Shown: piece by piece, positions 1 through 19,633 of the stretch
Layout: each line of letters opens with the position of its first letter
Position numbering within the stretch: the stretch's first letter is position 1
NCBI GenBank assembly: GCA_005223085.1
Contig: NJBP01000028.1
Span: forward strand, 1-26,782
Length of the DNA: 26,782 nucleotides
Direction: 5' to 3'
From: Candidatus Aerophobetes bacterium Ae_b3b
GTDB lineage: Bacteria > Aerophobota > Aerophobia > Aerophobales > AE-B3A
Translations under genes and position numbers: made by a program
Notes under the pieces: generated by a model
The model's database searches: none
What the model was told of the DNA's origin: nothing
The model's input: only the letters and a program-made list of their open reading frames with translations

Positions 1-71
1 ATAACTGTGGGTATGTGGTGAGATTTGCCAGTCCGTATCAGGTTTCCCACCGCGGAGTTAGCAATTAATAG
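1..71 (-). pseudogene. C-terminal continuation of pilT beyond the in-frame TAG (runs off the window)
   Basis: Reading on from the TAG at 72-74 in the same frame gives an uninterrupted 23 codons to the window edge. They include IANSAVGNLIRTGKSHH, which matches the conserved PilT C-terminal region around the AIRNLIRE motif. There is no frameshift, only a stop codon where the family has Glu, followed by CTA (Leu) where the family usually has Ile. This is either the remnant of a recently inactivated gene or a site of readthrough. TAG is used as an ordinary stop at the end of ndk in this window. Confidence 0.8.
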
Positions 72-917
72 CTACACCGCAGGTACTCTTCCTTCGCCAC
101 TTTTTTGGGGAAGAAGAATCTGGGCAATTACCGCCTGTAGAGTATTGGCTAGCTGAGTCCTTATCTGGGGTTGTTGGTGAGAGGGGAAAACATCGATGCA
201 CCTGTCCACCGCCCCCGGGGCATCGGGTGTATGCAGGGTGGCCAGGACCAAATGTCCGGTCTCAGCCGCAGTAATAGCGGTAGCAATGGTTTCTAGATCC
301 CTCATTTCTCCGATCAAAATGACATCGGGGTCCTGACGAAGGCAGCGCTTCAAAGACTCAGCGAAGGAGAAAGTATCTGAGCCCACCTCCCTTTGCTCTA
401 CCACACTCTTTTTATGAGAGTGCAGATATTCAATGGGGTCCTCCAGGGTGATAACATGGGCGGGTCTCTGTTCATTTATTATTCCTATCATGGCAGCCAG
501 GGTGGTTGATTTGCCACAGCCAGCCGGGCCAGTTACCAGGATGAGCCCTCTCTTCTTAAGAGCTAAGTCGGCCAGAATGGAAGGGAGATTGAGCTCGGAA
601 AGGGAGGGAATATGGTCAGGGAGACGTCTAATGGCCACTGCTGTCGATCCTCGTTGGATATGGACATTGGTCCGGAAACGTCCCACTCCACTTACTCCGA
701 AAGAAAAGTCAAGCTCATGACTCTTTTCAAACTGGGCTATTTTCTCAGCACCCATAACAGAATAAATGAGGGATTTTACCTCCTCAGAGGTAACAGATTT
801 CTCCTCCAATGCCTTTAACTCTCCATCAATACGAACAACAGGAGATATTCCGGCTACAAGGTGCAGGTCCGACGCATCTTTTGCCATCATTTCCTTTAGC
901 AAAGAAAGCAGATTCAT
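72..917 (-). CDS. pilT: PilT-like type IV pilus retraction ATPase, truncated by an in-frame TAG
   Basis: This is a secretion-family hexameric ATPase that would power pilus retraction at the inner membrane. The N-terminal PilT signature (KDASDLHL, residues 13-20) is followed by Walker A GPAGCGKST (130-138), the Asp-box region (about 155-180), Walker B with IGEMRD (202-207) and the His box [10 protein letters not shown] (221-230). The start is supported by AAGGA about 8 bases upstream. The product is 281 aa, while PilT is usually about 340-370 aa. The stop is a TAG at 72-74 at a position where PilT proteins normally have Glu. The same frame stays open beyond it to the window edge and still reads as PilT. 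The truncation removes the C-terminal motif known in the family as AIRNLIRE, which is needed for retraction, so the product is probably not a working retraction motor. A small HTH gene lies upstream on the same strand. Confidence 0.88.
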   Translation of the reverse strand: MNLLSLLKEMMAKDASDLHLVAGISPVVRIDGELKALEEKSVTSEEVKSLIYSVMGAEKIAQFEKSHELDFSFGVSGVGRFRTNVHIQRGSTAVAIRRLPDHIPSLSELNLPSILADLALKKRGLILVTGPAGCGKSTTLAAMIGIINEQRPAHVITLEDPIEYLHSHKKSVVEQREVGSDTFSFAESLKRCLRQDPDVILIGEMRDLETIATAITAAETGHLVLATLHTPDAPGAVDRCIDVFPSHQQPQIRTQLANTLQAVIAQILLPQKSGEGRVPAV

Positions 918-1145
918 AATTTGTTCCTTTTCAGTCTATTTCGAGAATACCTCTGCATCGTTTTCTCTAATCTTGGCCAGTTTTTCGCCTAAAGTAACAC
1001 CTAACAGAGAGCAAAAAATATGCCAAAAATTTAGCCACCTTCTTTTCTCCGCTTTGTCGAGTAGGTATCTATCTTTACCATCACAATATACTGCTTTACA
1101 TTTAAATCTCCTTGCACCTAAGTGCATCAACTTGCCCCAAATATG
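918..1145 (-). other. Long 5' leader of pilT with a doubtful 64-codon ORF
   Basis: About 228 bases separate the predicted start of transcription (near 1145) from the pilT ATG. A reading frame from 1130 (TTG) or 1127 (ATG) to 936 would give a basic peptide of about 64 aa with no recognisable domain and only a weak GGGG upstream. A small hairpin of TGCAC and GTGCA arms lies near 1115-1128. I see no known riboswitch class. The ORF may be chance. Confidence 0.25.
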
Positions 1146-1151
1146 TTCACA

Positions 1152-1179
1152 TTTATAGGATAAGTAATTATTTTGTCAA
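1152..1179 (-). promoter_or_regulatory. Promoter for pilT
   Basis: On the minus strand TTGACA (1179-1174) and TATAAA (1157-1152) are 16 bp apart. AGGATAAGTAA (1157-1167, plus strand) starts exactly at the -10 box. AGGATAAATAA (1190-1200) lies 33 bp further upstream. The same arrangement occurs at the two other promoters of this region, which suggests shared control. Confidence 0.65.
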
Positions 1180-1203
1180 GGGGAAATTAAGGATAAATAA
1201 TTC

Positions 1204-1527
1204 TCATGCTTGAATTTCTTTGCCTTTCGATCCTCGCTTGTTTCCTCTTAAGAATTCAAACTCTATCTCTGGCCCTGACGATGAAATGTCTAGCTTAACC
1301 AGACGAAGGTTTTCCAGATCATGGGCTGCTTTTTCTAATTGGTCCCGGGGAAAATTATTTCCCAGGCATCCCTCGAGAGCTTTTGAACTAAGCCTTCCGG
1401 TTCCCTTTACCTTATCGGCAAAGATTATGAGAAGCAGGTATAATCTAATCTCCTCCGAAGATAGCCTTTTCCATAAATTTTCCTGGGTTAGCTTTTTTAG
1501 TAGCTCACGTTTATTTATCTTCATCAT
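1204..1527 (-). CDS. Small HTH/winged-helix-like protein, probably translated from a leaderless mRNA
   Basis: A 107-aa, lysine-rich protein of no family I can name with confidence. Residues 24-75 (SSEEIRLYLLLIIFADKVKG, then SSKALEGCLG and DQLEKAAHDLENLRLVKL) have the pattern of a winged-helix DNA-binding domain, a helix pair followed by a recognition helix and a wing. The C-terminus is short and charged. It begins MM; both ATGs (1527 and 1524) lie at the predicted transcription start, 6-9 bases after the -10 box, and no Shine-Dalgarno precedes them. It is divergent from the XRE gene at 1711 and lies upstream of pilT, from which it is separated by a second promoter. It may be a regulator that controls itself, because repeat half-sites overlap its promoter and first codons. 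Confidence 0.65.
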   Translation of the reverse strand: MMKINKRELLKKLTQENLWKRLSSEEIRLYLLLIIFADKVKGTGRLSSKALEGCLGNNFPRDQLEKAAHDLENLRLVKLDISSSGPEIEFEFLRGNKRGSKGKEIQA

Positions 1528-1581
1528 ATAACATTTTAAGATAAATAATTATGATTGTCAAGCACAAAGCAAGATAAATAA
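1511..1581. promoter_or_regulatory. Operator-like cluster of three identical 11-bp half-sites
   Basis: The 11-mer AAGATAAATAA occurs exactly at 1538-1548 and 1571-1581, and inverted (TTATTTATCTT) at 1511-1521. The two direct copies are 33 bp apart and flank the -35 box. The inner copy begins on the first base (minus strand) of the -10 box. The inverted copy lies inside the first codons of the small HTH gene. A dimeric repressor covering this promoter is the simplest reading. The two regulators encoded on either side are candidates. Confidence 0.6.
1533..1561 (-). promoter_or_regulatory. Promoter of the 107-aa HTH gene
   Basis: On the minus strand TTGACA (1561-1556) and TAAAAT (1538-1533) have a 17-bp spacer. 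Transcription would start at about 1526-1527, on the start codon, which predicts a leaderless or near-leaderless message. Confidence 0.75.
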
Positions 1582-1656
1582 GCTTTCTAAGGCAGCAATC
1601 TCGCCGATCACCTGCCGAGTGCGACTTTGCCAATTTTTTAATTCGAGGGCGTGGGG

Positions 1657-1684
1657 TTGACAAAGAAAAAAATTGGTCTAGTAT
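1657..1684 (+). promoter_or_regulatory. Promoter of the XRE gene
   Basis: TTGACA at 1657-1662 is followed after 16 bp by TAGTAT (1679-1684), or after 19 bp by TATAAA (1682-1687). Either gives a short leader containing GGGAG before the ATG at 1711. Confidence 0.5.
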
Positions 1685-1710
1685 AAATCCAAAAAATGGG
1701 AGATTGACAA

Positions 1711-2139
1711 ATGACACTTGGTCAAAGAATGAGAAAGATCAGAAAAAGATTGGGCTTAACTCAAAAGGAATTTGCCCAACTTGTACCTGGTAAGATTGAT
1801 TATACCTATATTGGAAAGATAGAAAGAGGGCACCAGTATCCCTCTCTTAAGATGCTAGAAAGAATAGGGAGGGCCTTTTCTATCCCTCTTAGTTATTTCT
1901 TTGAGGATGACAGTTTGCTAAAGTCTTTGGATCTTCTACCCAGTGAGCTAAAGGATCTACTCAAAGACAAAAAAAGGCAGGATTGCCTAAGGATGAGTCG
2001 AGACCTAAAGCCACAAGATCTGGACTTGCTTATGCAGATAATGAATATCCTCATCCAGAAAAAACCTCTGGAGGGTTTACAGCTGGCAGAGGCTGAGCTT
2101 GATTGTCCGACTACGGAGGAGAAAAAGAAAAAGGATTGA
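1711..2139 (+). CDS. XRE-family (Cro/CI-type) transcriptional regulator
   Basis: A 142-aa protein with an N-terminal helix-turn-helix of the XRE family (residues 4-62: LGQRMRKIRKRLGLTQKEF, then YTYIGKIERGHQYPS and the LERIGRAFSIPLSYFF helix pair). The C-terminal half is charged and probably helical, and the end is a lysine-rich tail (EEKKKKD). GGGAG lies 8 bases before the ATG. It is transcribed divergently from the small HTH gene, with the half-site cluster in the shared intergenic region, so regulation of that promoter, and perhaps of the related ones at 1152, 4156 and 19606, is a reasonable inference. It has no effector domain. Its 3' end converges on the chimeric ORF that ends at 2141. 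Confidence 0.85.
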   Translation: MTLGQRMRKIRKRLGLTQKEFAQLVPGKIDYTYIGKIERGHQYPSLKMLERIGRAFSIPLSYFFEDDSLLKSLDLLPSELKDLLKDKKRQDCLRMSRDLKPQDLDLLMQIMNILIQKKPLEGLQLAEAELDCPTTEEKKKKD

Positions 2140-2140
2140 A

Positions 2141-2698
2141 TTAGTAAGATTGAGGCCAATCTTTGTTCCTCACCGAAGGTTTTACCTGGGTTTGATTAAT
2201 CCCGGCTAAAATGATCCTATCCACCGCCCCCGGGGCATCGGGTGTATGCAGGGTAGCCAGGACTAAATGTCCGGTCTCGGCCGCGGTGATAGCGGTAGCA
2301 ATGGTTTCTAGATCCCTCATTTCTCCAATCAAAATGACATCAGGATCCTGACGAAGGCAGCGCTTCAAAGATTCAGCGAAGGAGAAAGTATCTGATCCCA
2401 CCTCCCTTTGCTCTACCACACTCTTCTTATGTGGCCTTAATTTTTGAAGTGATTGGCGTGGGATGGTTTTTTTAGAGGAGGAAGGGACTGGCTTTGTACT
2501 TAGAGTGGACCTCTTCACGCTGGCAAGATATCTTAACCAGCTTAGGTTCCTGAGGAAGAACAAGGTTGATTCGAGATTCAGGGAAGCATCGGTATCATCG
2601 TTTTTGACTGTGGCCTTTTCCGTGGCTCTCCATGCAACTCCAAAACCCACCCGGATTAGAGCCAGCCCCACCAATATAAAAGTTGTCTCTTTTTTCAT
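2141..2698 (-). CDS. Chimeric ORF: membrane-anchored N-terminus plus captured PilT ATPase fragment
   Basis: The first 23 residues form a membrane anchor or signal segment ([17 protein letters not shown]). A polar, Ser/Pro/Lys-rich stretch to about residue 89 follows, a shape typical of bitopic inner-membrane pilus or secretion assembly proteins such as PilP or GspC (inference). Next comes a 72-residue block identical to residues 168-239 of the PilT at 72-917. It holds the Asp-box region, Walker B (IGEMRD) and His box, but has no Walker A, so it cannot be an ATPase by itself. A 24-residue tail of unknown origin ends the ORF. The ATG lies one base after the P1 stem of a c-di-GMP-I riboswitch, and no free Shine-Dalgarno is visible. 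It is probably a disrupted pilus gene into which a pilT segment was copied in frame. An assembly artefact is also possible. Confidence 0.55.
2220..2430 (-). repeat. Second copy of the central pilT cassette (partner of 205-415)
   Basis: The 211 bp here align without gaps to 205-415. I count 11 base differences (about 95% identity), and all are synonymous, so the encoded peptides are identical. Outside these limits the two loci do not match. This is a partial duplication or gene-conversion tract from a pilT gene that stayed under protein-level selection. Confidence 0.9.
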
Positions 2699-2699
2699 T

Positions 2700-2780
2700 G
2701 GTCTTTCGACGGCTCAGCCGACCTTTCGGTCCTGTAGCTTTGTGCCCCACCTTTTCAGGTAGTTTACCTTTTTCGAGACC
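2700..2780 (-). ncRNA. c-di-GMP-I (GEMM-I) riboswitch, second of a tandem pair
   Basis: Minus-strand RNA with the class-I layout: a GGUAAAC entry segment, a P2 stem CUACCU/AGGUGG closed by a GAAA tetraloop, then GGGGCACAAAG, CUACAGG, and a P3 stem GACC/GGUC with a GAAA loop, followed by GGCUGAGCCG. P1 is GGUCU (2780-2776) paired with AGACC (2704-2700) plus CGA with UCG. The P1 3' strand ends one base before the ATG at 2698, so ligand-stabilised P1 would bury the ribosome binding region. That suggests translational OFF control. The guanine at the specificity position equivalent to G20 of the Vibrio Vc2 aptamer appears kept, which favours c-di-GMP over cGAMP. Confidence 0.8.
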
Positions 2781-2844
2781 GGCCTCCGCCTCCTTGAAGC
2801 TAAGGCGATGGAGAGCTGGATCTAAACCAGATGAGACGTTTCAT

Positions 2845-2880
2845 TAAAAAAACCCATTTTTTCATGCGAAAAAATGGGTT
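2845..2880 (-). terminator. Intrinsic terminator between the two riboswitches
   Basis: A perfect 13-bp stem (AACCCATTTTTTC with GAAAAAATGGGTT, loop of 4) is followed on the minus strand by a run of seven U. It sits directly after the first aptamer and before the second. The flanking words GAGAC and GTCTC could extend or compete with the stem. I could not identify a clear antiterminator. Confidence 0.85.
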
Positions 2881-2896
2881 GTCTCTTTTAGACGCT

Positions 2897-2980
2897 GAAT
2901 AACTTCGGTAGCCCAGCCACCGCCTAGCGGTCTGTAACTTTGCGTCCCACTCTTCCGAATGGTTTGCCTTTTTCGGCTAT
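2897..2980 (-). ncRNA. c-di-GMP-I (GEMM-I) riboswitch, first of a tandem pair
   Basis: A near-textbook class-I aptamer on the minus strand: GGCAAACC, P2 stem CCAUUC/GAGUGG with a GGAA (GNRA) tetraloop, the conserved GUGGGACGCAAAG, then UACAG, a P3 stem ACCGC/GCGGU, and GGCUGGGCUACCGAAG. The G at the Vc2 G20 position is kept. It lies about 40 nt downstream of a strong promoter and just before an intrinsic terminator, so it probably controls transcription termination. The sign of the switch cannot be decided by eye. Confidence 0.92.
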
Positions 2981-3018
2981 CTTCTAGTTACATAAAAGAT
3001 CGTCTTCTATTACAATAT

Positions 3019-3046
3019 ATTATAATAAAAAAATATCAACTGTCAA
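3019..3046 (-). promoter_or_regulatory. Promoter of the tandem-riboswitch transcript
   Basis: On the minus strand TTGACA (3046-3041) and TATAAT (3024-3019) are both perfect consensus with a 16-bp spacer. Transcription would begin near 3012 and run into the first aptamer. Confidence 0.8.
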
Positions 3047-3055
3047 GTCCCCCTA

Positions 3056-3112
3056 CCTAAAAGGCCGGTTGTACCTGTATTTCAGCGTCCCACCCGCCGA
3101 GGCGGCGGTGCG
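3056..3112 (-). other. GC-rich hairpin with riboswitch-like words
   Basis: On the minus strand an 8-bp stem (CACC-GCCG paired with CGGC-GGTG) is followed by GGACGC and AATACAGG. This resembles the GTGGGACGC and TACAG words of the two GEMM-I aptamers, but the GNRA loop and the AAACC segment are missing. It lies upstream of the promoter at 3019-3046, so it is outside that transcript. It could be a degenerate third aptamer or an unrelated dispersed repeat. Confidence 0.3.
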
Positions 3113-3155
3113 ATTGATAATATTACTATGCATTGGCATTTTGAAAGGTAAATAC

Positions 3156-3182
3156 TTGATGGTTTTTAATATTTGTTATACT
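3156..3182 (+). promoter_or_regulatory. Possible promoter of the 112-aa ORF
   Basis: TTGATG (3156-3161) and TATACT (3177-3182) are separated by 15 bp, about 30 bp before a strong ribosome binding site (GGGGGA) at the ORF starting at 3213. The spacer is short, so this is tentative. Confidence 0.4.
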
Positions 3183-3212
3183 CACAGATAATTAAGTAAA
3201 GGGGGAAGAGAA

Positions 3213-3551
3213 ATGAAAACTAAATGTGGCAAGATTATGATCCACAAGACAAAAAAGCAGCTTCCAGCCGGAGCTAAATCAAGGCTGTCTCAAAAACTTT
3301 TAGGCTACAAGGATAAATCTAACTACGGAAAGTACACCTACAAAAGAGGAGAGCTTTTAGATAGCATCCCTCATATATCTCCTCTAAGGGCTGTTGTTAT
3401 CGTAACTCGAGTCTCTTTATGGCCTTTTTATTATTCTCACGACTTTGCCAAGAATTTTAGGTCTATTCTTGATTTTCCAGAATATCGGCCGGTATTTAGG
3501 ATTATCCGAAGTGAGAACAATCTGATTGACCCTGAAATGAATTCTTTTTAA
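3213..3551 (+). CDS. Small conserved-looking protein with a probably replaced C-terminus
   Basis: A 112-aa basic protein. GGGGGAAGAG lies directly before the ATG, a good ribosome binding site. Residues 10-67 (including GYKDKSNYGKYTYKRG, DSIPHISPLRAVVIV) look like a genuine folded domain and resemble small hypothetical proteins of prokaryotes that I cannot name. After about residue 68 the frame runs antisense through the last 135 bases of the S24 regulator gene, and the sequence there (LWPFYYSHDF onward) looks like a shadow of that gene. I infer that the original 3' end was lost and the frame now reads into its convergent neighbour. Function unknown. Confidence 0.5.
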   Translation: MKTKCGKIMIHKTKKQLPAGAKSRLSQKLLGYKDKSNYGKYTYKRGELLDSIPHISPLRAVVIVTRVSLWPFYYSHDFAKNFRSILDFPEYRPVFRIIRSENNLIDPEMNSF

Positions 3552-4106
3552 AATCTGTTTACCCTCCTGGTCAACAGCTACTACCTCACCGGTTTTGGCC
3601 TTAGTGTTTGGCGAAACAATAACCCGATCTCCTGGGGATATTTTAGGCTCCATAGAATCTCCATCTACATTCCAGCTGTAGGCCAGAGGATCATTAATTT
3701 CCGGGGGACAGTATTCGCAGTCCTCGACCCAGTTTGCAGGGTATTCCCTACCTGTAAATCCAATTAGTTTATCCGCAGAAATATGACCTAAGACAGGAAC
3801 AAAACGGCATTCATCTGATTTAGGGGGTCTTATTCCAAAACGCTGCTTTTGTTTGTCAAGCCGTCCCTGTTCATATTTAATTCGCTTTATCTCAAGTAAT
3901 TTTATGAGTCTCTTTCTCCTTTCCGCATCAAAATCAAGAACATCAGCGACTTTCTCAATAGCATAGATGGTTGGTGGGTGCTCTCTGTCGTTCTCGATCA
4001 TGTTGTAATAAGGCTGCGATATATTGGCCTTTTCTGCTACTTGCTGTTGGGTCAGCTTTTTCTTAAGACGAACAGTTTTGACAACTTCCCCTATCGTCTT
4101 TTCCAT
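3417..4106 (-). CDS. XRE/S24 (CI- or LexA-like) repressor
   Basis: A 229-aa protein with an N-terminal XRE helix-turn-helix (residues 6-62; TQQQVAEKANISQPYYNMIE) and a C-terminal S24 peptidase-type domain (about 102-226). The nucleophile is Ser151 in VDGDSMEP and the general-base Lys is Lys187 in QILKRI, spacing typical of LexA and CI. The usual Ala-Gly cleavage pair is Ala-Asp here (VLGHISADKL, 111-112). Cleavage may therefore be lost or altered, and the domain may act mainly in dimerisation. Cysteines at 100, 130 and 133 are unusual. It is driven by a perfect consensus promoter whose half-site layout matches the promoters at 1152 and 1533, pointing to autoregulation or shared control. The 3' end overlaps the opposite-strand ORF at 3213-3551. 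Confidence 0.85.
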   Translation of the reverse strand: MEKTIGEVVKTVRLKKKLTQQQVAEKANISQPYYNMIENDREHPPTIYAIEKVADVLDFDAERRKRLIKLLEIKRIKYEQGRLDKQKQRFGIRPPKSDECRFVPVLGHISADKLIGFTGREYPANWVEDCEYCPPEINDPLAYSWNVDGDSMEPKISPGDRVIVSPNTKAKTGEVVAVDQEGKQILKRIHFRVNQIVLTSDNPKYRPIFWKIKNRPKILGKVVRIIKRP

Positions 4107-4155
4107 GTTATCCTCTGTTTGTCAGCAACTTAGGTTTATTTATCGTCGTCTTTTT

Positions 4156-4184
4156 ATTATAAGATAAAGAATTATGACTGTCAA
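4156..4184 (-). promoter_or_regulatory. Promoter of the S24 repressor gene
   Basis: On the minus strand a perfect TTGACA (4184-4179) and TATAAT (4161-4156) have a 17-bp spacer nearly identical to that at 1533-1561. AAGATAAAGAA (4161-4171) starts on the -10 box, AGGCTAAATAA (4194-4204) lies 33 bp upstream, and an inverted TTATTTATCGT (4136-4146) lies downstream. This is the same three-part layout as at 1511-1581. Confidence 0.8.
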
Positions 4185-4281
4185 GCTAAGTACAGGCTAA
4201 ATAATATTCATATCCTCATAATTCTGCCAATGATAGACCGGGCCGAAGTTACTCACTATTTGAAAAAAAGAGATCTTTAAT

Positions 4282-10566: not shown

Positions 10567-11628
10567 CTAATGTGTCTGTCTTCTCTTGTCCTGGTACATC
10601 TTTTCGTCTGCCCTGGCGACTGCCTCTGATAGATCCATTTTTCCATTGACTGGAGTCCAGCCTATACTTAAGTTCATAGAGAGAGGCGAGTCCTTGTTTT
10701 GCCGATTCCACTGCTCAATTGCTTTCCTTATTCTCCTCACCAGTGCTCGGGTCTGCTTACCGCTAGTGTTCGGAAGAACGGCAGCCATCTCATCTCCGCC
10801 GTATCTAGCTACTGTATCCATGCTCCTTACATTCCTTTCTAGAAGATGAGCAGCTTCCTTTAAAAGATAATCCCCTTGGTTATGCCCAAGATGATCATTT
10901 ACATATTTTAAGTTGTTAACATCAACGAGCATCAGGGATAAATCCATTTGATACCCTTTTGCCTTTTCCAGCTCCTTTTTAAGTATCTTATCAAATTGCT
11001 GTCTGGTATAAAGCTCAGTTAAGGGATCAACCGTAGCTAGTTTCCTCGCCTCTTCATATAAGCAGGCATTGTGTATGGCAATCCCTATCTGGTTGGCTAG
11101 GTCTTTCATTAGTTGCAAGTGATCCGGAGTAAAGAAATTTACCCTCTTACTTTCTAGATATACAGCACCTATAATTTGATTTTGAAAAATTATGGGCACA
11201 GCCAGCCGGGACCCAGGGGGTTTTTCCCTTTTTAAATGTGCTAGGTCTTCTTTATCCGAAATTATGAGAGCTTCTCTTTCCCTGACTACTCGATAAACAC
11301 TCTCTGTTGCATCCTCCTTTAATCTCTTTTTAATTGTTTTCTTCTGGTACCCTTTCCATACTTTAGGAATCAGCTTACCGGTTTCTTTGTCTATTAGAAA
11401 AATGATGCACCGCTTAACTCCCATAACTTTTTCAATAGCGTGCATACTATCTTCAAGCACTTCTCTAAGGTTCAGGCTAGAGTTTATCAGCCTTTGTGCC
11501 CTAAACAAGCTCTTCAACTCATCATATAATCTCTTTAGTTGGCTGATTTTTGCTTCATGCTCTTTTTCTATCCGATTGAAGTACCTCAGTTTCTTTTTGA
11601 ATTCCCCTGCCTCCGTTGATTTCTTCAT
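10567..11628 (-). CDS. GAF-GGDEF diguanylate cyclase
   Basis: A 353-aa protein that should make c-di-GMP from two GTP. It has an N-terminal coiled coil (about 10-48), a GAF sensor domain (50-192) and a GGDEF domain (198-350). The signature is GGDEM at 277-281: the catalytic G-G-D-E core is kept and the last position is Met instead of Phe. The metal-site Asp is 236 (LVDVNN). The RxxD inhibitory site (RSMD, 268-271) stands five residues before the signature, so feedback inhibition by c-di-GMP is expected. There is no membrane segment. GGAAG stands before the ATG. Last gene of the leftward run that starts with the fabF-like gene, 56 bp after the HD-GYP gene, its natural opponent in c-di-GMP turnover. 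Confidence 0.93.
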   Translation of the reverse strand: MKKSTEAGEFKKKLRYFNRIEKEHEAKISQLKRLYDELKSLFRAQRLINSSLNLREVLEDSMHAIEKVMGVKRCIIFLIDKETGKLIPKVWKGYQKKTIKKRLKEDATESVYRVVREREALIISDKEDLAHLKREKPPGSRLAVPIIFQNQIIGAVYLESKRVNFFTPDHLQLMKDLANQIGIAIHNACLYEEARKLATVDPLTELYTRQQFDKILKKELEKAKGYQMDLSLMLVDVNNLKYVNDHLGHNQGDYLLKEAAHLLERNVRSMDTVARYGGDEMAAVLPNTSGKQTRALVRRIRKAIEQWNRQNKDSPLSMNLSIGWTPVNGKMDLSEAVARADEKMYQDKRRQTH

Positions 11629-11684
11629 CTTTCTTCCTTTTCCTCGATAAGAGAACCTGCCTTTTTGGCTATCCTCTATATTTT

Positions 11685-12689
11685 TTATAGCCTGGAAAGG
11701 TACCCATCTTTTTCAAATTTTAAAAAATGGGGAACAAGAAGATCTACCAGGGAAAAATCAAACTGTTTGCCTTTTACTTTTATTATCTCTTCAATAGCTT
11801 CTCCAGGGGATAACTTACTTCGGTAGCATCTTTCAGTAGTTATAGCGTCATAGGTGTCTATTATTGCAAAGAGTCTTGCCGGAAAAGGGATCTTCTTGCC
11901 TTTAAGACCTTCCGGATATCCTCTACCATCATAGCTTTCGTGATGATACAAAACAATATCCAGCCCTTCCTTAAGGAAGATGGTTGGACGAAGGATTTGA
12001 TAACCGATAAGGGGGTGTTGTTTTATCTTCTCAAGTTCAAAAGGAGAAAGAGATCCTTTTCTTCTTAAAATTCTTTCTTCAATTCCGATTTTACCAATAT
12101 CGTGAAGTTCTGCTGCCCGTTTGTAGTTAATCAACTTCGAATCGGGAATGCCAATCCTCTTCCCGATCCTGACCAGAAGTTCCGAAGTTCTCCGGGAGTG
12201 TTCAGCCGTATAAGAATCCTTGGCATCTACAGCTAAAACGAGAGCTTGGGTAGTAGCTTCATAATTAAGATCAATGGCTTCGTGCAGGTCCTTAATCAGT
12301 CTGGTGCTTTCCATAACCTGATTTCTCTTCTGCAGAGCTCTCTCAGCAGCCTCCAGTACCTGATCCTTGCCAAAAGGTTTAACAATATAATCAAAGGCTC
12401 CAGAACGAAGAGCCTGTAGACTCGAGGAAAAATCTGGATAGGCCGTTATCATAACAACTTCTACTTGAGGTTTTATTTTTTTTATTTTTTCTAAGAATTC
12501 AAGACCGTTCATAGAAAACATCCTTATGTCCGTAAAGATAAGATCTGGCTCCAGAGAAAGATCAGCCAGAGCTTCCTCCGGGCAATTAAAAGTAAATACC
12601 GGGTATTTATCTTTCAGAATCATTCTCATTGATTCCTGCACACTTTTCTCATCATCTACCACAAACACTGTTGTCTTTTTATTTCTCAA
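11685..12689 (-). CDS. Response regulator with HD-GYP domain (RpfG-like c-di-GMP phosphodiesterase)
   Basis: A 334-aa two-domain protein. The receiver domain (about 6-122) has the acidic pair Asp12-Asp13, phospho-acceptor Asp54 (FTDIRM), Thr82 and Lys104. The HD-GYP domain (about 143-330) has His196-Asp197 (ELHDIGK), the HH pair 249-250 and HHESYDGRGYPEG ending in GYP (257-259), all metal and substrate positions of active phosphodiesterases. The start is a TTG with AAGGAG 8 bases upstream. The gene begins 20 bp after the stop of the kinase at 12710. Its position after two kinases makes it their likely phosphorylation target, as RpfG is for RpfC. Confidence 0.95.
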   Translation of the reverse strand: MRNKKTTVFVVDDEKSVQESMRMILKDKYPVFTFNCPEEALADLSLEPDLIFTDIRMFSMNGLEFLEKIKKIKPQVEVVMITAYPDFSSSLQALRSGAFDYIVKPFGKDQVLEAAERALQKRNQVMESTRLIKDLHEAIDLNYEATTQALVLAVDAKDSYTAEHSRRTSELLVRIGKRIGIPDSKLINYKRAAELHDIGKIGIEERILRRKGSLSPFELEKIKQHPLIGYQILRPTIFLKEGLDIVLYHHESYDGRGYPEGLKGKKIPFPARLFAIIDTYDAITTERCYRSKLSPGEAIEEIIKVKGKQFDFSLVDLLVPHFLKFEKDGYLSRL

Positions 12690-12709
12690 TTCCAGAGCTC
12701 CTTTGTTTT

Positions 12710-14758
12710 TTAAAGGGGAGGTCGATAGCGAGGAAGGTAAACCACCATAGTGGTACCTTTTCCCTGCTCACTAAGAGGAACTATACAACCCCCGTGTTCT
12801 TCAATAATACTCTGAGAAATGGTCAGCCCCAGACCTATTCCTCTGTTTTTGGTGGTGAAAAAAGGATCAAATATGTTGTTCTTATCCATATTCTTCGCTG
12901 GCAAACCTGGACCGTTATCTCTAATTTCTATTTTCACATATTCTGTGGGTTCCTGGGAGACCATTTTTTTTCGGGTCCTGACTGAAAGAGTGTCAGGTAA
13001 CTTATCTGTAGCCTCACAGTTAATATCTATTTTTACCGCCTCTTCTGCTACCGCCTCGATACTATTACTTACAATATGACCAAAAGCTTCAATTATAGCT
13101 TTTTTATCTACGTAAACCTGCAGGTTCTCTTCCTTACAGTTAATATTTAACTGGACCTCTCTGTTCGTGAACGTCTTCTTTTTAACGTTTTCCAGAGTCT
13201 CGGTGATTAAACTGAGCAATGATTCAGCGGCTTTATCCAGATGTAGAGGCTGGCTGAAAAATACCAGACGTTCAATAAGATTATCTATTCGCTCAATTTC
13301 TTTTGTTACTACAGAAAATAGTCTTTTTCGAAACTCCTCATCAACGTATTTTGAGGGTAGAAGCTCAGCTAAGGACTTAATGGGAACCAAACTGTTTCTC
13401 AACTCTTGAGAGAAACGAACAGCTACCTGAGCAAGAAAATCCCTTTTTTGCGCTTTTTCCTTCTCTTCTTGCAGATATTTAATGGGAGTAAGGTCTGTAA
13501 ATATCATCATACTTCCTGAAACCTCTCCCTTGGCATTTTTCACCTGACTGGTACTTACGCCCAGCCAGCGTTTTATAGCTGGAACATAAACTTCTTTTCT
13601 TTCATACAGGGTGCCCTGAGTGAGAGTTTCGAATAAAAGGTCACCCAAAGGTGAGGGGAGTTTCCTCATATCCTTACCCGTTAAATTTAGATATTCATCA
13701 AGATTTAACATTTTCTGAGCCCGGGGATTGCAGGTTGTGATTTTTTGTTCGGTATCTACACTTATTACACCACTGGTGGCATCTTTAAGGACATTCTCAA
13801 TATACTTTTTCTGGCAACACATCTCCTCATAAAACAAAATATTTTGTATAGCAAGTCCAACTTGATTGCAAAATAAAAAGACCTGTTTAATTTCCCTTGA
13901 AGACATCTTGTCTCCGGTGATCTTCGGCCCAAGACCCAGTATTCCTATTAGCTCACCATGGGCAGAAAGGGGAACTACAACATTGGACTGAATAAGCTTC
14001 ATCTGTTGTTTTATCTCATAGGCAGTTTTAAAATCAGTCTGCAGGATACGCTCTCTGGTTATTACTGTGCCTTCTCTGGCAAGGAACTTCACCAATCCCT
14101 GCTGAGGATAAAGTTGAACGTATTGTTTCATTTCCTCTGTCATCCCCAGACAGGCTCTTATCCGATAGGTTTTTTCCATTTTATCTTTTAAAAGAAGGGA
14201 AAGCCGGGTTATTCCGAACAGCCTGGTTAAAAGATCCAGAAAAAATTGCATAAGTTCATCTAAATTATACCCATGGATCAGGAAGCGTGACATTTGCTCT
14301 AAAAATTGCCACTCTTCTGAGGAGAAAGTTCTCTCTTTTTCTGAAGATGAAAAAGGATGAAACGATTCTCTGGAGATTCTTTCTTCTTTCATTCTTGAGA
14401 TTAACATCTCTTTTTCCACCTTTTCTCTTACCACTTCAGGAAGAAGGGTAACATCCCTGTCTATATCTACATATTCGGCAAGCCCCTTCTCCCGTGCTGC
14501 CTGGATTATCCTTCCGTCTATCTTCCGTCCTATTCCCAAAACCACTGCTGAGTCATTGAACCCTCTTATCAGTGGGATGATATCCAGACCATCCCACACC
14601 ATAGAGGAAAAGTCAATAATTATAAGATCTACCATTAAACTTAAGGTTCTAATCTTTCGATGCTCATTCTCCGTGATAATCAGATACTCTGATCCTAAGA
14701 GATCATTTAAAAACTTCTCTCTTTTTCTTTCACGGGTGATAAAAAGTATACTAGCCAT
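12710..14758 (-). CDS. Hybrid sensor kinase-like protein lacking the phosphorylatable His
   Basis: A soluble, multi-domain kinase homologue. I favour the ATG at 14758, with GGAAGAG just upstream, over the ATG four codons earlier (14770). Residues below count from 14770. It has an N-terminal receiver-like domain (7-120, Asp53), a GAF domain (about 165-312), a PAS domain (about 322-432), a dimerisation helix pair (443-510) and a HATPase domain (555-680). The ATP site looks whole: Asn569 (N box), DNGPG (618-622), FDPFFTT and GIGLGL (644-649). The H box reads RFSQELRNSL, with Gln455 (CAA) where the neighbouring kinase has His606 in GELAHEIKNPL. It should not autophosphorylate at the usual site. 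It may act through a mixed dimer with the upstream kinase, or as a regulator. Confidence 0.9.
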   Translation of the reverse strand: MASILFITRERKREKFLNDLLGSEYLIITENEHRKIRTLSLMVDLIIIDFSSMVWDGLDIIPLIRGFNDSAVVLGIGRKIDGRIIQAAREKGLAEYVDIDRDVTLLPEVVREKVEKEMLISRMKEERISRESFHPFSSSEKERTFSSEEWQFLEQMSRFLIHGYNLDELMQFFLDLLTRLFGITRLSLLLKDKMEKTYRIRACLGMTEEMKQYVQLYPQQGLVKFLAREGTVITRERILQTDFKTAYEIKQQMKLIQSNVVVPLSAHGELIGILGLGPKITGDKMSSREIKQVFLFCNQVGLAIQNILFYEEMCCQKKYIENVLKDATSGVISVDTEQKITTCNPRAQKMLNLDEYLNLTGKDMRKLPSPLGDLLFETLTQGTLYERKEVYVPAIKRWLGVSTSQVKNAKGEVSGSMMIFTDLTPIKYLQEEKEKAQKRDFLAQVAVRFSQELRNSLVPIKSLAELLPSKYVDEEFRKRLFSVVTKEIERIDNLIERLVFFSQPLHLDKAAESLLSLITETLENVKKKTFTNREVQLNINCKEENLQVYVDKKAIIEAFGHIVSNSIEAVAEEAVKIDINCEATDKLPDTLSVRTRKKMVSQEPTEYVKIEIRDNGPGLPAKNMDKNNIFDPFFTTKNRGIGLGLTISQSIIEEHGGCIVPLSEQGKGTTMVVYLPRYRPPL

Positions 14759-14807
14759 TTTCTCTTCCATGCCTGCTTTTTATTTTAATTTTTCTCCGGG
14801 CACATAT

Positions 14808-17279
14808 TCAATTTACCTTTTTACTTTTATCAGAATGATCTTGGCTATAGAAAGGTAATTCAACAGTCACCATTGCCCCTCGTTCCCAATTACCAATACG
14901 TATTCTTCCGTCATGGTTTCGGATAACTCGATACGCTACAAATAGCCCTAATCCCGAACCTTTATGTTTGGTACTGTAAAAGGCATCAAATGCTCTTTCT
15001 ATGGACCTCTCAGAAAATCCGGGGCCATTGTCCTTAAAAGTTACCACATTAGGTAACCTCATGTTTTTCTTCTGTTTAATATCTATATAAATTTTCCCTT
15101 TCTCATCAACTGCTTCGGTGCAATTTGTGATAATGTTTGAAAATGCTTTTTTTAGCTCAACTCTGTCTGCAAAGACATTGGGTTGAGACAAATATTTTTT
15201 TATAATTTGAATACGTTTAGCACTTAGTTGTATACTCATATCCTCAAGAATTTCTTCTAATAGTTCCGATAAACTTACCTTGACGTATTCCCCCTTTTCT
15301 TTTTTCAAAGTAAAATTAAACAATTTGTTGACCATTTCATCTATTCTATCTATTTCTTTCAGAGCAAGGGTCATAAATTTGTTTCTAAATTCCTCATCTT
15401 TGTATTTGTCCGGAAGTAATTCAGCCATTGTTCTTACTGAAACAAGAGGGTTCTTTATCTCATGAGCTAATTCACCTGCTATTACGCCCATTGTAGCTAA
15501 TCTTTCTGCCTTTCTTACCTCTGCTTCCAGTTCTTTTAGTTTCGTCAAGTCGGTAAGAACACAAACAACCTGTCTAATCTCACTACCGGTCTCTTCATAC
15601 AAAACACTAGTATTAATCATAGCCGGGATCCTTTTGCCTTGACCTTTATTAACCTCAATAGAGAACTCCTGATCGGCATAACTTTTTCCTCCCTTATACC
15701 CACTTTCAAACACTTTATTCAGTGGTACTGGAAGAACAGAGTATTCTTTGCCTATTATGTACTTCCTACTTAATCCAGTGATTCTCTCTGCTTGCAAGTT
15801 GAACGCTGAAATTCTACCATTGCTATCCAGACTGATAACCCCGCTTCGCATGCCTTGCAGAATTCCCTCGTTGTAATCCTTCATATTCTTTACTTGCTGA
15901 AACAGCTTTGCATTCTCTAAAGCAATAGAGGCTTCATCAGAAAATAAAGAAAGAAGCTGAATATCCAAGTTTGTATAAATATCCCCGGATAACTTCCCTC
16001 CGAGACATAAAAATCCAACCATCTGGTCTCTAAATGATAAGGGAAGAACTAACTTAATTCGAAGCTTGTTAAAAATACTCTGTATTGGGCCTTGAACTCG
16101 TGAGGGCAGGAGAGCCAAGTCTTCCTCTAGTAACACGTTTTTCCTTTTCTGTAATGTAGTCACAAGTACATTTTTGCTATCGAAGTTTTCCTGAAGGTGG
16201 TCTTTTTTAGGTAATGTTACTTTACATTCATAAATCCCTGAATTTTCATTTAGAACATACAAGTATCCAAGAGAGGAACCTAAGGTTCTTACAACCTTTT
16301 CAATGATGAAATTCAAAAGAACTTCGATTTCTAATATAGCACTAAGTTCTCGGGTGTGTTTTCTGAATTCTCGATAGTAACTTTCTCTTTCAGGATAGAA
16401 CAAATTGACAAAGATATTTTCAATCCTGTTTCTCAGGGGATTGAACAACAAAGCGAATCCAAATGAAATTATTACCATCAAGAGAAAAGAGGACATTCTA
16501 CTAATTGGGCCAAACAACAAAGTGGGCAAATAGATGAGAAAAATAAAAAATAAAGTAACAAAAGCTGTCATTAATGAATAGGTAACCACCGTTCTGAAAA
16601 CAATCCTGATATCCATTAAACGATATTTTACGATAGAGTAAGCAGTAATAGAAGTGAACATAACCAGGAAAATGTCATGGGGAATTTTTTCTTCAATTCC
16701 ATAGACACTGAGAAAATGCATTAATCCTCCAGTAAAAGCTAACAAAAAACCAATAAATAGATACTTACATTGATTTTTTTTGAATCCTGACCAAATTCTG
16801 TATTTGTCTAACAAAACATAGAATCCATAAATAATCATAACTGTGAATACACTTACATAAATGGTGTAAAGTGGTCCAGGAACGATACTGTATTTATAAA
16901 CATTGGAAGAGGTAATTCCTGCAATAAACCAGTCGCGGAAACCAAGAGAGGCAAAGGTCAACGAGAATAAATAACTCGGAAACAGTATATGTTTTTTACG
17001 TTTGGCTTCACCTAAAATTTCCAGAATAAAGTGCAAATAAATGCTTGGGCAAAAGATGGCGAACAGGTATATTATACGGATAAAAAAAAGCAGAGAATGT
17101 GCATCGAGATTGGAAGCCATAATAGTGGGATACAAACACCATGTACCTATCATCACGCAAAGTAAAGAGAACAGTTGATTTCTTGCTACTTTTCTATTCT
17201 TCAGATACACAAATATCGCCATGCCTGTGTTCACAACAAACGCAGACAGCGACGATATCACAAAGATGGTTACTTCCAT
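14808..17279 (-). CDS. Seven-TM sensor histidine kinase (PrsK-like)
   Basis: An 823-aa membrane kinase. The N-terminal part has about nine hydrophobic segments (1-25, 36-55, 63-90, 97-113, 137-156, 172-190, 202-217, 229-257, 263-280), matching the 7TM histidine-kinase N-domain plus two more, as in PrsK-type kinases. A GAF domain (about 310-460), a PAS domain (465-585), a HisKA domain with His606 (GELAHEIKNPL) and a HATPase domain with Asn719, DNGPG (750-754) and GSGLGL (774-779) follow. All catalytic boxes are intact. The ATG follows the stop of the SDR gene with no gap (TAA ATG), so translation is coupled to it. The kinase core is clearly paralogous to the next gene (MAELLPDKYKDEEFR versus LAELLPSKYVDEEFR), suggesting tandem duplication. 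Its ligand is unknown. Confidence 0.95.
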   Translation of the reverse strand: MEVTIFVISSLSAFVVNTGMAIFVYLKNRKVARNQLFSLLCVMIGTWCLYPTIMASNLDAHSLLFFIRIIYLFAIFCPSIYLHFILEILGEAKRKKHILFPSYLFSLTFASLGFRDWFIAGITSSNVYKYSIVPGPLYTIYVSVFTVMIIYGFYVLLDKYRIWSGFKKNQCKYLFIGFLLAFTGGLMHFLSVYGIEEKIPHDIFLVMFTSITAYSIVKYRLMDIRIVFRTVVTYSLMTAFVTLFFIFLIYLPTLLFGPISRMSSFLLMVIISFGFALLFNPLRNRIENIFVNLFYPERESYYREFRKHTRELSAILEIEVLLNFIIEKVVRTLGSSLGYLYVLNENSGIYECKVTLPKKDHLQENFDSKNVLVTTLQKRKNVLLEEDLALLPSRVQGPIQSIFNKLRIKLVLPLSFRDQMVGFLCLGGKLSGDIYTNLDIQLLSLFSDEASIALENAKLFQQVKNMKDYNEGILQGMRSGVISLDSNGRISAFNLQAERITGLSRKYIIGKEYSVLPVPLNKVFESGYKGGKSYADQEFSIEVNKGQGKRIPAMINTSVLYEETGSEIRQVVCVLTDLTKLKELEAEVRKAERLATMGVIAGELAHEIKNPLVSVRTMAELLPDKYKDEEFRNKFMTLALKEIDRIDEMVNKLFNFTLKKEKGEYVKVSLSELLEEILEDMSIQLSAKRIQIIKKYLSQPNVFADRVELKKAFSNIITNCTEAVDEKGKIYIDIKQKKNMRLPNVVTFKDNGPGFSERSIERAFDAFYSTKHKGSGLGLFVAYRVIRNHDGRIRIGNWERGAMVTVELPFYSQDHSDKSKKVN

Positions 17280-18245
17280 TTAAATTATCCCTTTACTTTT
17301 ATACCAGGTAACAGTTTCTCTAATGCCTATCTCGGAGCTAAATGGAGGAATGTAGCCTAATTCCTCCCGGGCTTTGGAAATAACGCAGGCCCAATTTGAT
17401 CGCATCTCATTAATTAATTTCCTTACACTATGAGGTCCAAATTTGACAAGTATGTCGGTCAAAAGGTCAGGGATTTTGATTTTTGGGGAACTAACACCTT
17501 CAGCATCTGCTATAATCTCAACCCATTCATTTAGTGCACGTGGTTTTTCATCGGCAACAAAGTAGATATCACTTGGCACTATCTTGATATGCCTTAGCGT
17601 CTCCAAGACAGCCATTAAGTTCTCTATGTAACACAAACTAAATAAGCTATTTCCATCTCCAAGTGGCCTTATGCCCCTTTTCACCATCTTGAATAATAAG
17701 GTCGACCGAGAAAAAATATGGTCCCCGGGTCCATAAACTAAAGGGGATCTAATTATAGTCACAGGAAGCCCATATTGTCTCTTGTATTGCAACAGTATAT
17801 TTTCAGCCTCCAACTTACTTTTTCCATATCGGGTAATTGGATTAGGTAAAGTATTCTCGTTCACTACACCATAATTTTTTCCTACTACTGCGGCAATACT
17901 GCTCAAGAATATAAATCTTGGATACTCCCTGGAAGAATTCATCACAGCTTGAGCCAAAATTTTTGTACCTTCTGTGTTTACCTTGTAGTAGGGATTACCC
18001 CTTTTTTGCTTTGCAAATACTTTTCCTGCCAGATGATATACCAGTTGAACTTCAGGAATCGATTTCACTAAAGTCTTTTTATCAAGAATATCCACTCTTT
18101 TTAACTCCACGTTTGCTTTGTTCAGCTTTGGGCACCGCTCAACTGGCTGTCTTACCAAACAGGTAATCCTATCGTTATTTGTGGCTAACCTATTTACCAG
18201 GAATCTTCCTATAAATCCTGTTGCTCCCGTTACTAGAATATTCAT
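17280..18245 (-). CDS. NAD(P)-dependent epimerase/dehydratase or reductase (extended SDR)
   Basis: A 321-aa extended short-chain dehydrogenase. It has a Rossmann N-terminus with GATGFIG (7-13), Asp52-Ile (bound-cofactor region), HLAGKV (71-76), the catalytic Ser pair (115-116, FLSSIAA), Tyr140 and Lys144 (RYGKSK), and the family RSPLVYGPGD (166-175). The substrate domain does not let me name the substrate. Relatives act on nucleotide sugars, in hopanoid-linked pathways, or as keto-group reductases. The gene lies 57 bp after the ketosynthase gene and its stop abuts the 7TM kinase start, so it belongs to the signalling operon. Working with the ketosynthase on an acyl product is possible but not shown. 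No clear Shine-Dalgarno is visible. Confidence 0.88.
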   Translation of the reverse strand: MNILVTGATGFIGRFLVNRLATNNDRITCLVRQPVERCPKLNKANVELKRVDILDKKTLVKSIPEVQLVYHLAGKVFAKQKRGNPYYKVNTEGTKILAQAVMNSSREYPRFIFLSSIAAVVGKNYGVVNENTLPNPITRYGKSKLEAENILLQYKRQYGLPVTIIRSPLVYGPGDHIFSRSTLLFKMVKRGIRPLGDGNSLFSLCYIENLMAVLETLRHIKIVPSDIYFVADEKPRALNEWVEIIADAEGVSSPKIKIPDLLTDILVKFGPHSVRKLINEMRSNWACVISKAREELGYIPPFSSEIGIRETVTWYKSKGII

Positions 18246-18302
18246 GACTTGACGTTTGGTAGACCTTAATCTACTAAATCACCTTAAATGTAGTAGATAA
18301 AG

Positions 18303-19550
18303 TTACGATTTTAGATTTCTAAGAATTAACACACCGTTCTTACCTCCAAAACCGAAACAATTGCTCATAAAATAATCTACCTTTGCCCTTCTGGCCATGT
18401 TGGGTACATAATCCAAGTCACAATGAGGGTCTCTATGTTCATAGTTGATAGTGGGTGGAACCATTCCTGCAGAAAGGCATATCAAACTGGCGCACAGCTC
18501 TACCGCGCCACTTGCTCCCATGAGGTGCCCGAGCATAGACTTAATAGCGCTGACCTTTACTCTATAAGCATGTTGTCCAAATATTTCTTTGATCGCCTGT
18601 GTCTCAAGCACGTCACCTATTTTAGTCCCAGTGCCGTGAGCCTGGATATAGTCTATTTTTTCCGGATTGATTTCGCTGCTCAATAATGCCCGTTGTATAG
18701 CTTCACGAATTCCTCTTGCTTCCGGGTGAGGAGCTCTTATACGATATGCATCGCAACTAAATCCATAACCCATAACTTCCGCATATATCTTTGCACTTCT
18801 TACCATGGCTCTACGATAATCCTCCAGAACTAATACTCCGGCTCCTTCACTCAAAATGGTACCGTCTCTTTGGGCATCAAAAGGTCGAGGTGTACCACCC
18901 TTATCTTGAGCTCTTTCAGACAGTATCTTAGAAAGAGATATTGAAACAAAAAACATAGGAAAAAGTAGGGCTTCTGAGCCACCGGCAAGAATTACCTCTG
19001 CTTTCCCAGCTTTTATCAAGTCAAACCCGTAGCTAATGGCATCAAAAGAAGAAGTGCAGGCAGAAGAGAAGGTTTTGCTGGGACCCTGAGCATTCCATGC
19101 TATAGCCACATGGCTCGAAAGAGCGTTTGGATAGGTTATAGAAGACGTATACGGATGGACGGAGAGAGGACCTTTTTTAATGAAATTTTGGTATTGGTCA
19201 AAAAGAAATCCCACTCCTCCTATTGTGGTTCCAAAAGATGTAGCTGTTTTCTCCGGTGCAACATCTTTTTCTGTCATTCCTGCGTCTTTCATTGCCATTT
19301 GGGCAGCTGCAAGGGCAAACTGCGTACATCTTTCAGTTCTATTTGCTTCTCTCTCTGACATATAATTGAGCGGATCAAAGTCCCTTATCTCACCTGCCAA
19401 TTTGCATGAATATGGAGACGTATCAAAACGGGTAATTGGTTTGATTCCTGACTTCCCAGCTATTAGGTTCTTCTGGAGCTCTTCCTTATCTATGCCTATG
19501 GGCGAGAGAACCCCAAGTCCTGTAATTGCTACCCTTCTTCTGAGAACCAT
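18303..19550 (-). CDS. FabF-like beta-ketoacyl-ACP synthase
   Basis: A 415-aa KAS II-type condensing enzyme that would extend an acyl chain by two carbons from malonyl-ACP. The catalytic triad is complete: Cys165 (SSACTSSFD), His305 (QAHGTGTKIGD) and His342 with Lys337 (IKSMLGHLMGASG), plus the gating FGFGGKN loop (399-405). Length is typical. The nucleophile loop (SACTSS) differs from the common TACATG, and no acyl carrier protein, fabD or fabG lies nearby, so a special-purpose enzyme rather than the main fatty-acid elongase is likely. It heads a leftward run with an SDR, two kinases, an HD-GYP regulator and a diguanylate cyclase. The promoter at 19606-19633 carries an AAGATAAATC word at the -10 box. 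Confidence 0.93.
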   Translation of the reverse strand: MVLRRRVAITGLGVLSPIGIDKEELQKNLIAGKSGIKPITRFDTSPYSCKLAGEIRDFDPLNYMSEREANRTERCTQFALAAAQMAMKDAGMTEKDVAPEKTATSFGTTIGGVGFLFDQYQNFIKKGPLSVHPYTSSITYPNALSSHVAIAWNAQGPSKTFSSACTSSFDAISYGFDLIKAGKAEVILAGGSEALLFPMFFVSISLSKILSERAQDKGGTPRPFDAQRDGTILSEGAGVLVLEDYRRAMVRSAKIYAEVMGYGFSCDAYRIRAPHPEARGIREAIQRALLSSEINPEKIDYIQAHGTGTKIGDVLETQAIKEIFGQHAYRVKVSAIKSMLGHLMGASGAVELCASLICLSAGMVPPTINYEHRDPHCDLDYVPNMARRAKVDYFMSNCFGFGGKNGVLILRNLKS

Positions 19551-19605
19551 AATTAAGCTACCATTTTTCTCGGAGTATCAAGAATTCAGCCTCTTACATG
19601 TTTCA

Positions 19606-19633
19606 TTTATAAGATAAATCACTATTTTGTCAA
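19606..19633 (-). promoter_or_regulatory. Promoter of the fabF-like/signalling operon
   Basis: On the minus strand TTGACA (19633-19628) and TATAAA (19611-19606) have a 16-bp spacer. AAGATAAATCA (19611-19621) starts on the -10 box exactly as the AAGATAAATAA half-site does at 1538, 4161 and 1157. The upstream half-site 33 bp away is absent here. Confidence 0.75.

Follow-up and report, generated by a model that had tools for sequence, protein, structure and literature searches.

A ketosynthase paralogue linked to a seven-transmembrane sensor kinase and an HD-GYP regulator: a possible synthase-receptor signalling module

Genes of the locus

The 26,782-nucleotide contig NJBP01000028.1 of Candidatus Aerophobetes bacterium Ae_b3b, the whole of which we refer to as the window, is part of a 2.04-Mb genome (88.6% complete) and carries a run of genes in which a FabF-type ketosynthase (KAS) paralogue lies close to a seven-transmembrane (7TM) sensor kinase. 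A previous reading made from the sequence alone had described six same-strand genes with gaps of 0-57 bp and named their families; all six open reading frames (ORFs) were found on the minus strand, and the family names were upheld by Pfam and NCBIfam models together with motifs. The first gene encodes the KAS (18303..19550), with its Cys-His-His triad intact, and is followed by an extended short-chain dehydrogenase/reductase (SDR; 17280..18245) with TGATGFIG and YGKSK motifs, which lies between KAS and the sensor histidine kinase HK1 (14808..17279). HK1 has a 7TM-GAF-PAS-HisKA-HATPase layout with the phospho-accepting His intact, while HK2 (12710..14770) combines a degenerate receiver, in which Asp53 is invariant, with GAF, PAS, HisKA (His replaced by Gln) and HATPase domains. 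The last two genes encode a REC/HD-GYP response regulator with an intact HD-GYP signature (11685..12689), a predicted phosphodiesterase of cyclic di-GMP (c-di-GMP), and a GAF-GGDEF protein (10567..11628), a predicted diguanylate cyclase with a GGDEM motif and an RSMD I-site. From KAS to GAF-GGDEF, the intergenic gaps are 57, 0, 37, 20 and 56 bp, by ORF coordinates.

As for the one good promoter that had been placed ahead of these genes, a promoter-like TTGACA-N16-TATAAA sequence (19606..19633, minus strand) can be read by eye 56 bp 5' of the KAS ATG, but a promoter scan did not return it, and we therefore regard it as weak. Consensus promoter sites were no commoner in the region than in shuffled sequence, and terminator-like matches occurred at chance level, all of them within genes.

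The SDR-HK1-HK2 part is not an assembly chimera, because an independent contig from a metagenome-assembled genome carries the three genes contiguously and in the same order, with 96.2% DNA identity to the window. This contig (L012; SOIY01000124.1, positions 1-4263) is filed as 'Candidatus Stahlbacteria' E29_bin50, where it may be mis-binned, a suspicion raised because the sole FabF-like match of E29_bin50 shares 38% identity with the window KAS.

Linkage of the ketosynthase and kinase genes across genomes

We surveyed 17 genomes of the order, including that of the window, for HK1 homologues (E<1e-60) and for a second FabF (E<1e-70). HK1 homologues were present in five of the 17, and the same five have a second FabF, no extra FabF being found in any of the other 12 (Fisher p ~1.6e-4, hand calculation). 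The second FabF is directly upstream of HK1 in four of the five, the window being the case in which the SDR alone intervenes, and HK2 and then REC/HD-GYP follow downstream wherever the contigs of these genomes continue. As the SDR is missing from the relatives, we define the core of the module as KAS-HK1-HK2-HD-GYP.

In order to assess the breadth of this arrangement, a profile of the HK1 7TM-GAF region was run over 386 genomes, and a KAS profile over the 79 in which it matched, the results being read together with the sequences of the loci. KAS lies directly upstream of the kinase, on the same strand, in 23 of the 386 genomes, which represent 15 families and include the window despite its intervening SDR; in two further genomes (G102 and G350) the upstream KAS is set apart from the kinase by a small gene or a short gap. 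The top-scoring kinase matches are almost all KAS-linked. The pair occurs in at least three phyla, those of the window, of G040 and of G202 being distinct, and in four of four genomes examined of the G202 phylum, the phylum-limited searches having covered three to four genomes each. The four core genes are thus linked, and KAS and HK1 inherited together, far beyond the window's relatives. The expectation of the sequence-only reading that linkage would be conserved in related genomes therefore held strongly for KAS, the kinases and HD-GYP, but not for the SDR and GGDEF genes.

The SDR, an Epimerase-type extended SDR with TGATGFIG, SS and YxxxK motifs, has no match below E 1e-20 in the order's other 16 genomes and is confined to the lineage of the window. 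Its identification as OleD or 2-alkyl-3-oxoalkanoate reductase was rejected (69-77 bits against an NCBIfam cut-off of 580). An HpnA identity was also rejected, the score falling below the model cut-off. The GGDEF protein, with an RxxD site upstream of its GGDEM motif, was not seen encoded downstream of the cassette in the loci of relatives that we examined. We class the genes for the SDR and the GGDEF protein as accessories outside the conserved core, and the idea that the six genes form one conserved system had to be abandoned.

The sequence-only reading had also noted a kinase homologue without phospho-His, and in the window HK2 this residue is indeed Gln (SQELRN), with the G boxes retained. 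The loss is not a family trait, because 13 of 17 HK2 homologues keep the His; HK2 as a constitutive pseudokinase family was rejected on the same count. HK2 is probably a partner or modulator of HK1. The HD-GYP protein, composed of REC and HD_5 domains, has intact HDIGK and HHExxDGxGYP motifs. The output half also exists alone, since a Nitrospiraceae genome (L013, 9230-12242) has an HK2-like kinase with REC/HD-GYP and no adjacent KAS or 7TM kinase.

Ketosynthase, receptor and neighbouring acyl chemistry

The window KAS belongs to the FabF fold family, matching 71 KAS sequences of the PDB at E<=1e-40, and has the active-site motifs ACTSS, AHGTG and KSMLGH. It scores 485 bits against the fabF model TIGR03150 (cut-off 494) and above the cut-off of PRK07314. 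It is not the housekeeping FabF (KAS II), which is encoded elsewhere in the genome (G000:C82): all linked KAS long enough to place fall outside the housekeeping FabF clade (clade support 100/97). Unlinked housekeeping FabF proteins keep Cys-His-His, as does one half of the linked KAS, which comprises the window, its order relatives, G057, G334, G202, G198, G131a, G268a and G350. In the other half the second His gives way to Gln, Asn or Ile, the loss being counted in 13 main copies, and two members (G040 and G187) lack both His. Among the 26 linked KAS in which the site is covered, 24 retain the catalytic Cys, the two exceptions being upstream tandem copies in G131 and G268.

HK1 has an intact phospho-His motif (AHEIKNPL) and a sensor domain of the HisKA_7TM family. 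The 7TM domain (window 16575-17279) was modelled with a predicted local distance difference test score (pLDDT) of 88 as seven helices, of which the fourth and fifth are separated by a beta hairpin that resembles extracellular loop 2 (ECL2). The Foldseek matches listed for this model are G-protein-coupled receptors (GPCRs), the best with E 7e-4. VIA Z scores to GPCRs were 14-16.5 over ~200-227 of 235 residues at 3.5-4.8 A, the top score (16.5) covering 217 residues, values to be read against the ~13-14 that helical bundles reach without kinship. The model suggests a GPCR-like arrangement rather than common descent. A fold search with the full N-terminal part of HK1 returned only the GAF domain among the matches listed. 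Across these kinases a single residue of the 7TM domain is invariant, and such high sequence variability is what receptors of different ligands would be expected to show.

The trees of KAS and HK1 share their deepest split (SH-aLRT 96 for KAS and 99 for HK1), and the bipartition of the HK1 tree coincides with the two active-site halves of KAS, second His kept or lost. KAS and HK1 distances remain correlated given those of housekeeping FabF (partial Mantel 0.42, p 0.0002), and the two have therefore travelled together since that deep split. Within the order, the window and G002 share 42.8% identity in KAS and 32.8% in HK1 but 65.7% in HK2 and 79.9% in HD-GYP, their housekeeping FabF proteins being 75.4% identical, while for G002 and G016 the corresponding values are 73.4%, 62.3%, 60.9% and 71.9%. 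The divergent block of the window thus consists of KAS and the whole of HK1, ending at HK2, and it is exactly within this block that the SDR lies. If a synthase-receptor pair switched its signal, enzyme and receptor would be expected to change together in this way while the output half stayed constant. That the front half was acquired horizontally from a distant phylum, replacing the original, is unsupported, because the window HK1 stays within the clade of the order, on a long branch (SH-aLRT 100), and grouping of the window KAS with that of the order is not rejected (approximately unbiased, AU, test, p 0.36).

A varied acyl chemistry is encoded beside the pairs. B12-radical-SAM proteins adjoin them in G031, G178, G266, G140, G277 and G202 and, in degenerate form, in G292; those scored 81-102 bits to TIGR04072 (cut-off 360), and their identity as ladderane radical-SAM proteins was rejected. 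The G292 homologue (L091, 6568-8322) apparently lacks CxxxCxxC and has no Pfam match, and the KAS adjoining it likewise lacks the second His. Other neighbours are ICMT-type methyltransferases (G202, G057 and G198), polyketide-cyclase-family proteins (G131 and G198), a SAM methyltransferase (G350) and MMPL exporters (G040 by Pfam, G187 by similar position and sequence). In G131 and G268 (L080 6171-8712, minus strand, and L083 1-2041), tandem KAS genes precede a 7TM kinase and a REC-HTH regulator, with the polyketide-cyclase-family gene present in G131; the upstream copy has Asn in place of the catalytic Cys, reminiscent of a chain-length factor. In G241 a B12-radical-SAM protein and a BioF/Kbl-type acyltransferase (L119, 8154-9365 and 9387-10847, minus strand) are encoded directly upstream of the 7TM kinase, with no KAS; in the same slot G101, of the same genus and again with no KAS, encodes a thioester-reductase-like SDR. 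The varying element is the acyl chemistry and the constant one the 7TM kinase. The window cassette encodes no acyl carrier protein (ACP) or full fatty-acid synthesis set, and a short side-branch of lipid metabolism therefore fits.

Known systems and possible mechanism

The sequence-only reading had likened the locus to RpfC/RpfG-type systems, in which a fatty-acid-type signal enzyme (RpfF), a membrane kinase and a REC/HD-GYP regulator are likewise encoded together. By family, however, the window is not an Rpf system: RpfF has a crotonase fold, which none of the six genes encodes, whereas the window enzyme is a FabF-type KAS; RpfC is a hybrid kinase with REC and Hpt domains, neither of which HK1 has; and the window encodes an additional soluble kinase, HK2. 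The regulator itself is an RpfG-like REC/HD-GYP protein. The suggested likeness to PrsK, the PEP-CTERM/XrtA kinase of the PrsK/PrsR pair, extends to the membrane-GAF-kinase layout, but HK1 scores 115.5 bits against the PrsK model TIGR02916, below its cut-off of 300. The alpha-hydroxyketone systems CqsA/CqsS and LqsA/LqsS likewise pair an acyl-condensing synthase with a multi-transmembrane sensor kinase. In the slot of CqsA/LqsA, the window has a KAS, whereas the G241 relative has a BioF/Kbl-fold enzyme, of the CqsA/LqsA fold family. Identity with these systems was rejected, as the window encodes no alpha-oxoamine-synthase-type synthase and the G241 enzyme scores 187 bits against the autoinducer-synthase model (cut-off 428). 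By analogy, the module would resemble Rpf and Cqs/Lqs in its working, but it fails on the synthases that define them.

The ketosynthases PpyS and DarB are FabH-like. They make the cell-cell signals photopyrones (PpyS) and dialkylresorcinols (DarB), which are read by LuxR solos, soluble LuxR-type regulators in place of the 7TM kinase found here (PMC4578411). Ladderane-type clusters of Kuenenia contain a canonical FabF and an atypical one without catalytic residues, near B12-radical-SAM genes; the papers describing them mention no kinases or two-component regulators, whereas kinases are present here (PMC2649909, PMC4790861). Nothing in the open literature searched, coverage of which is incomplete, was found to describe a module of KAS and a 7TM kinase.

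The mechanism that we favour, at about even odds, is that of a synthase-receptor signalling module in which HK1 senses the product of KAS. KAS would draw on general metabolism for acyl-ACP or acyl-CoA and form a beta-keto product resembling a lipid or polyketide; in the lineage of the window the adjacent SDR would probably reduce or modify it. HK1 would sense this product and, modulated by HK2, phosphorylate the REC/HD-GYP protein, which would degrade c-di-GMP, to be replenished by the GAF-GGDEF protein. Action between cells or within the membrane, the route of phosphotransfer and the c-di-GMP output are parts of the mechanism that we infer. The earlier suggestion that KAS makes what the kinase senses is favoured by KAS-HK1 co-divergence and by the varied acyl-chemistry neighbours, though not as a six-gene system. 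Somewhat more tentatively, these loci could represent a widespread and undescribed form of chemical signalling, mostly in little-studied phyla, in which an acyl-enzyme slot, filled by a FabF-type KAS that is at times degenerate or tandem or, in relatives, by a BioF/Kbl-type enzyme or a thioester-reductase-like SDR, and a GPCR-like 7TM kinase co-diversify around an unchanging c-di-GMP output, in the manner of pherotype switching.

Several points weigh against a synthase-receptor module. We infer both the role of the KAS product as HK1 ligand and its structure; HK1 may sense membrane state and not a molecule; and the joint divergence of KAS and HK1 could be a general relaxation of the 5' half. 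One half of the linked KAS may not condense, because the second catalytic His is lost. Furthermore, the output differs between lineages, being mostly REC/HD-GYP but elsewhere NtrC-type, REC-HTH or hybrid kinases.

A less probable alternative is a biosynthetic operon for an envelope lipid or pigment, in which the two-component system only regulates the operon or monitors the envelope and the KAS product is not a ligand. Tailoring enzymes and MMPL/RND lipid exporters adjoin the genes in some genomes, and B12-radical-SAM proteins with atypical KAS recall ladderane-type clusters (PMC2649909), but the window cassette is limited to KAS and SDR, without an exporter, ACP or full pathway, and in several relatives (G002 and G016) the kinases are accompanied by KAS alone. 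Nor would such an operon be expected to show KAS diverging jointly with the sensor and not with the regulator. It is more doubtful still that KAS is a signalling subunit and not an enzyme, its acylated Cys reporting acyl-ACP supply to HK1 by protein contact. Retention of the Cys where one or both His are lost, the missing CxxxCxxC in the radical-SAM neighbour of G292 and the tight KAS-HK1 co-inheritance would suit such a role; however, the window KAS and its whole sister half retain Cys-His-His, the tailoring enzymes would be left unexplained, and a BioF/Kbl-type enzyme occupies the same slot in G241. Chance placement of a duplicated FabF beside an unrelated kinase operon is very improbable. 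In its favour, 7TM kinases are common, and many of the homologues have no linked KAS; the comparative data already contradict it, however, since gene order and strand are kept across 23 genomes that span 15 families and no fewer than three phyla, and the trees share splits.

If the KAS product is the ligand, the module would be a ketosynthase-based signalling family across several poorly studied phyla, and the enzyme-sensor pair might constitute a type of chemical communication between bacteria that has gone undescribed; should KAS rather sense acyl-ACP, it would connect fatty-acid synthesis with two-component and c-di-GMP control in a new way. In both cases, a role is suggested for the numerous 'second FabF' genes.

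Elsewhere in the window, a 221-bp piece of a pilT-like gene is duplicated (196-416 and 2211-2431, 94% identical), one copy sitting inside another ORF 2 kb away, which reflects either a partial gene duplication or an assembly repeat.

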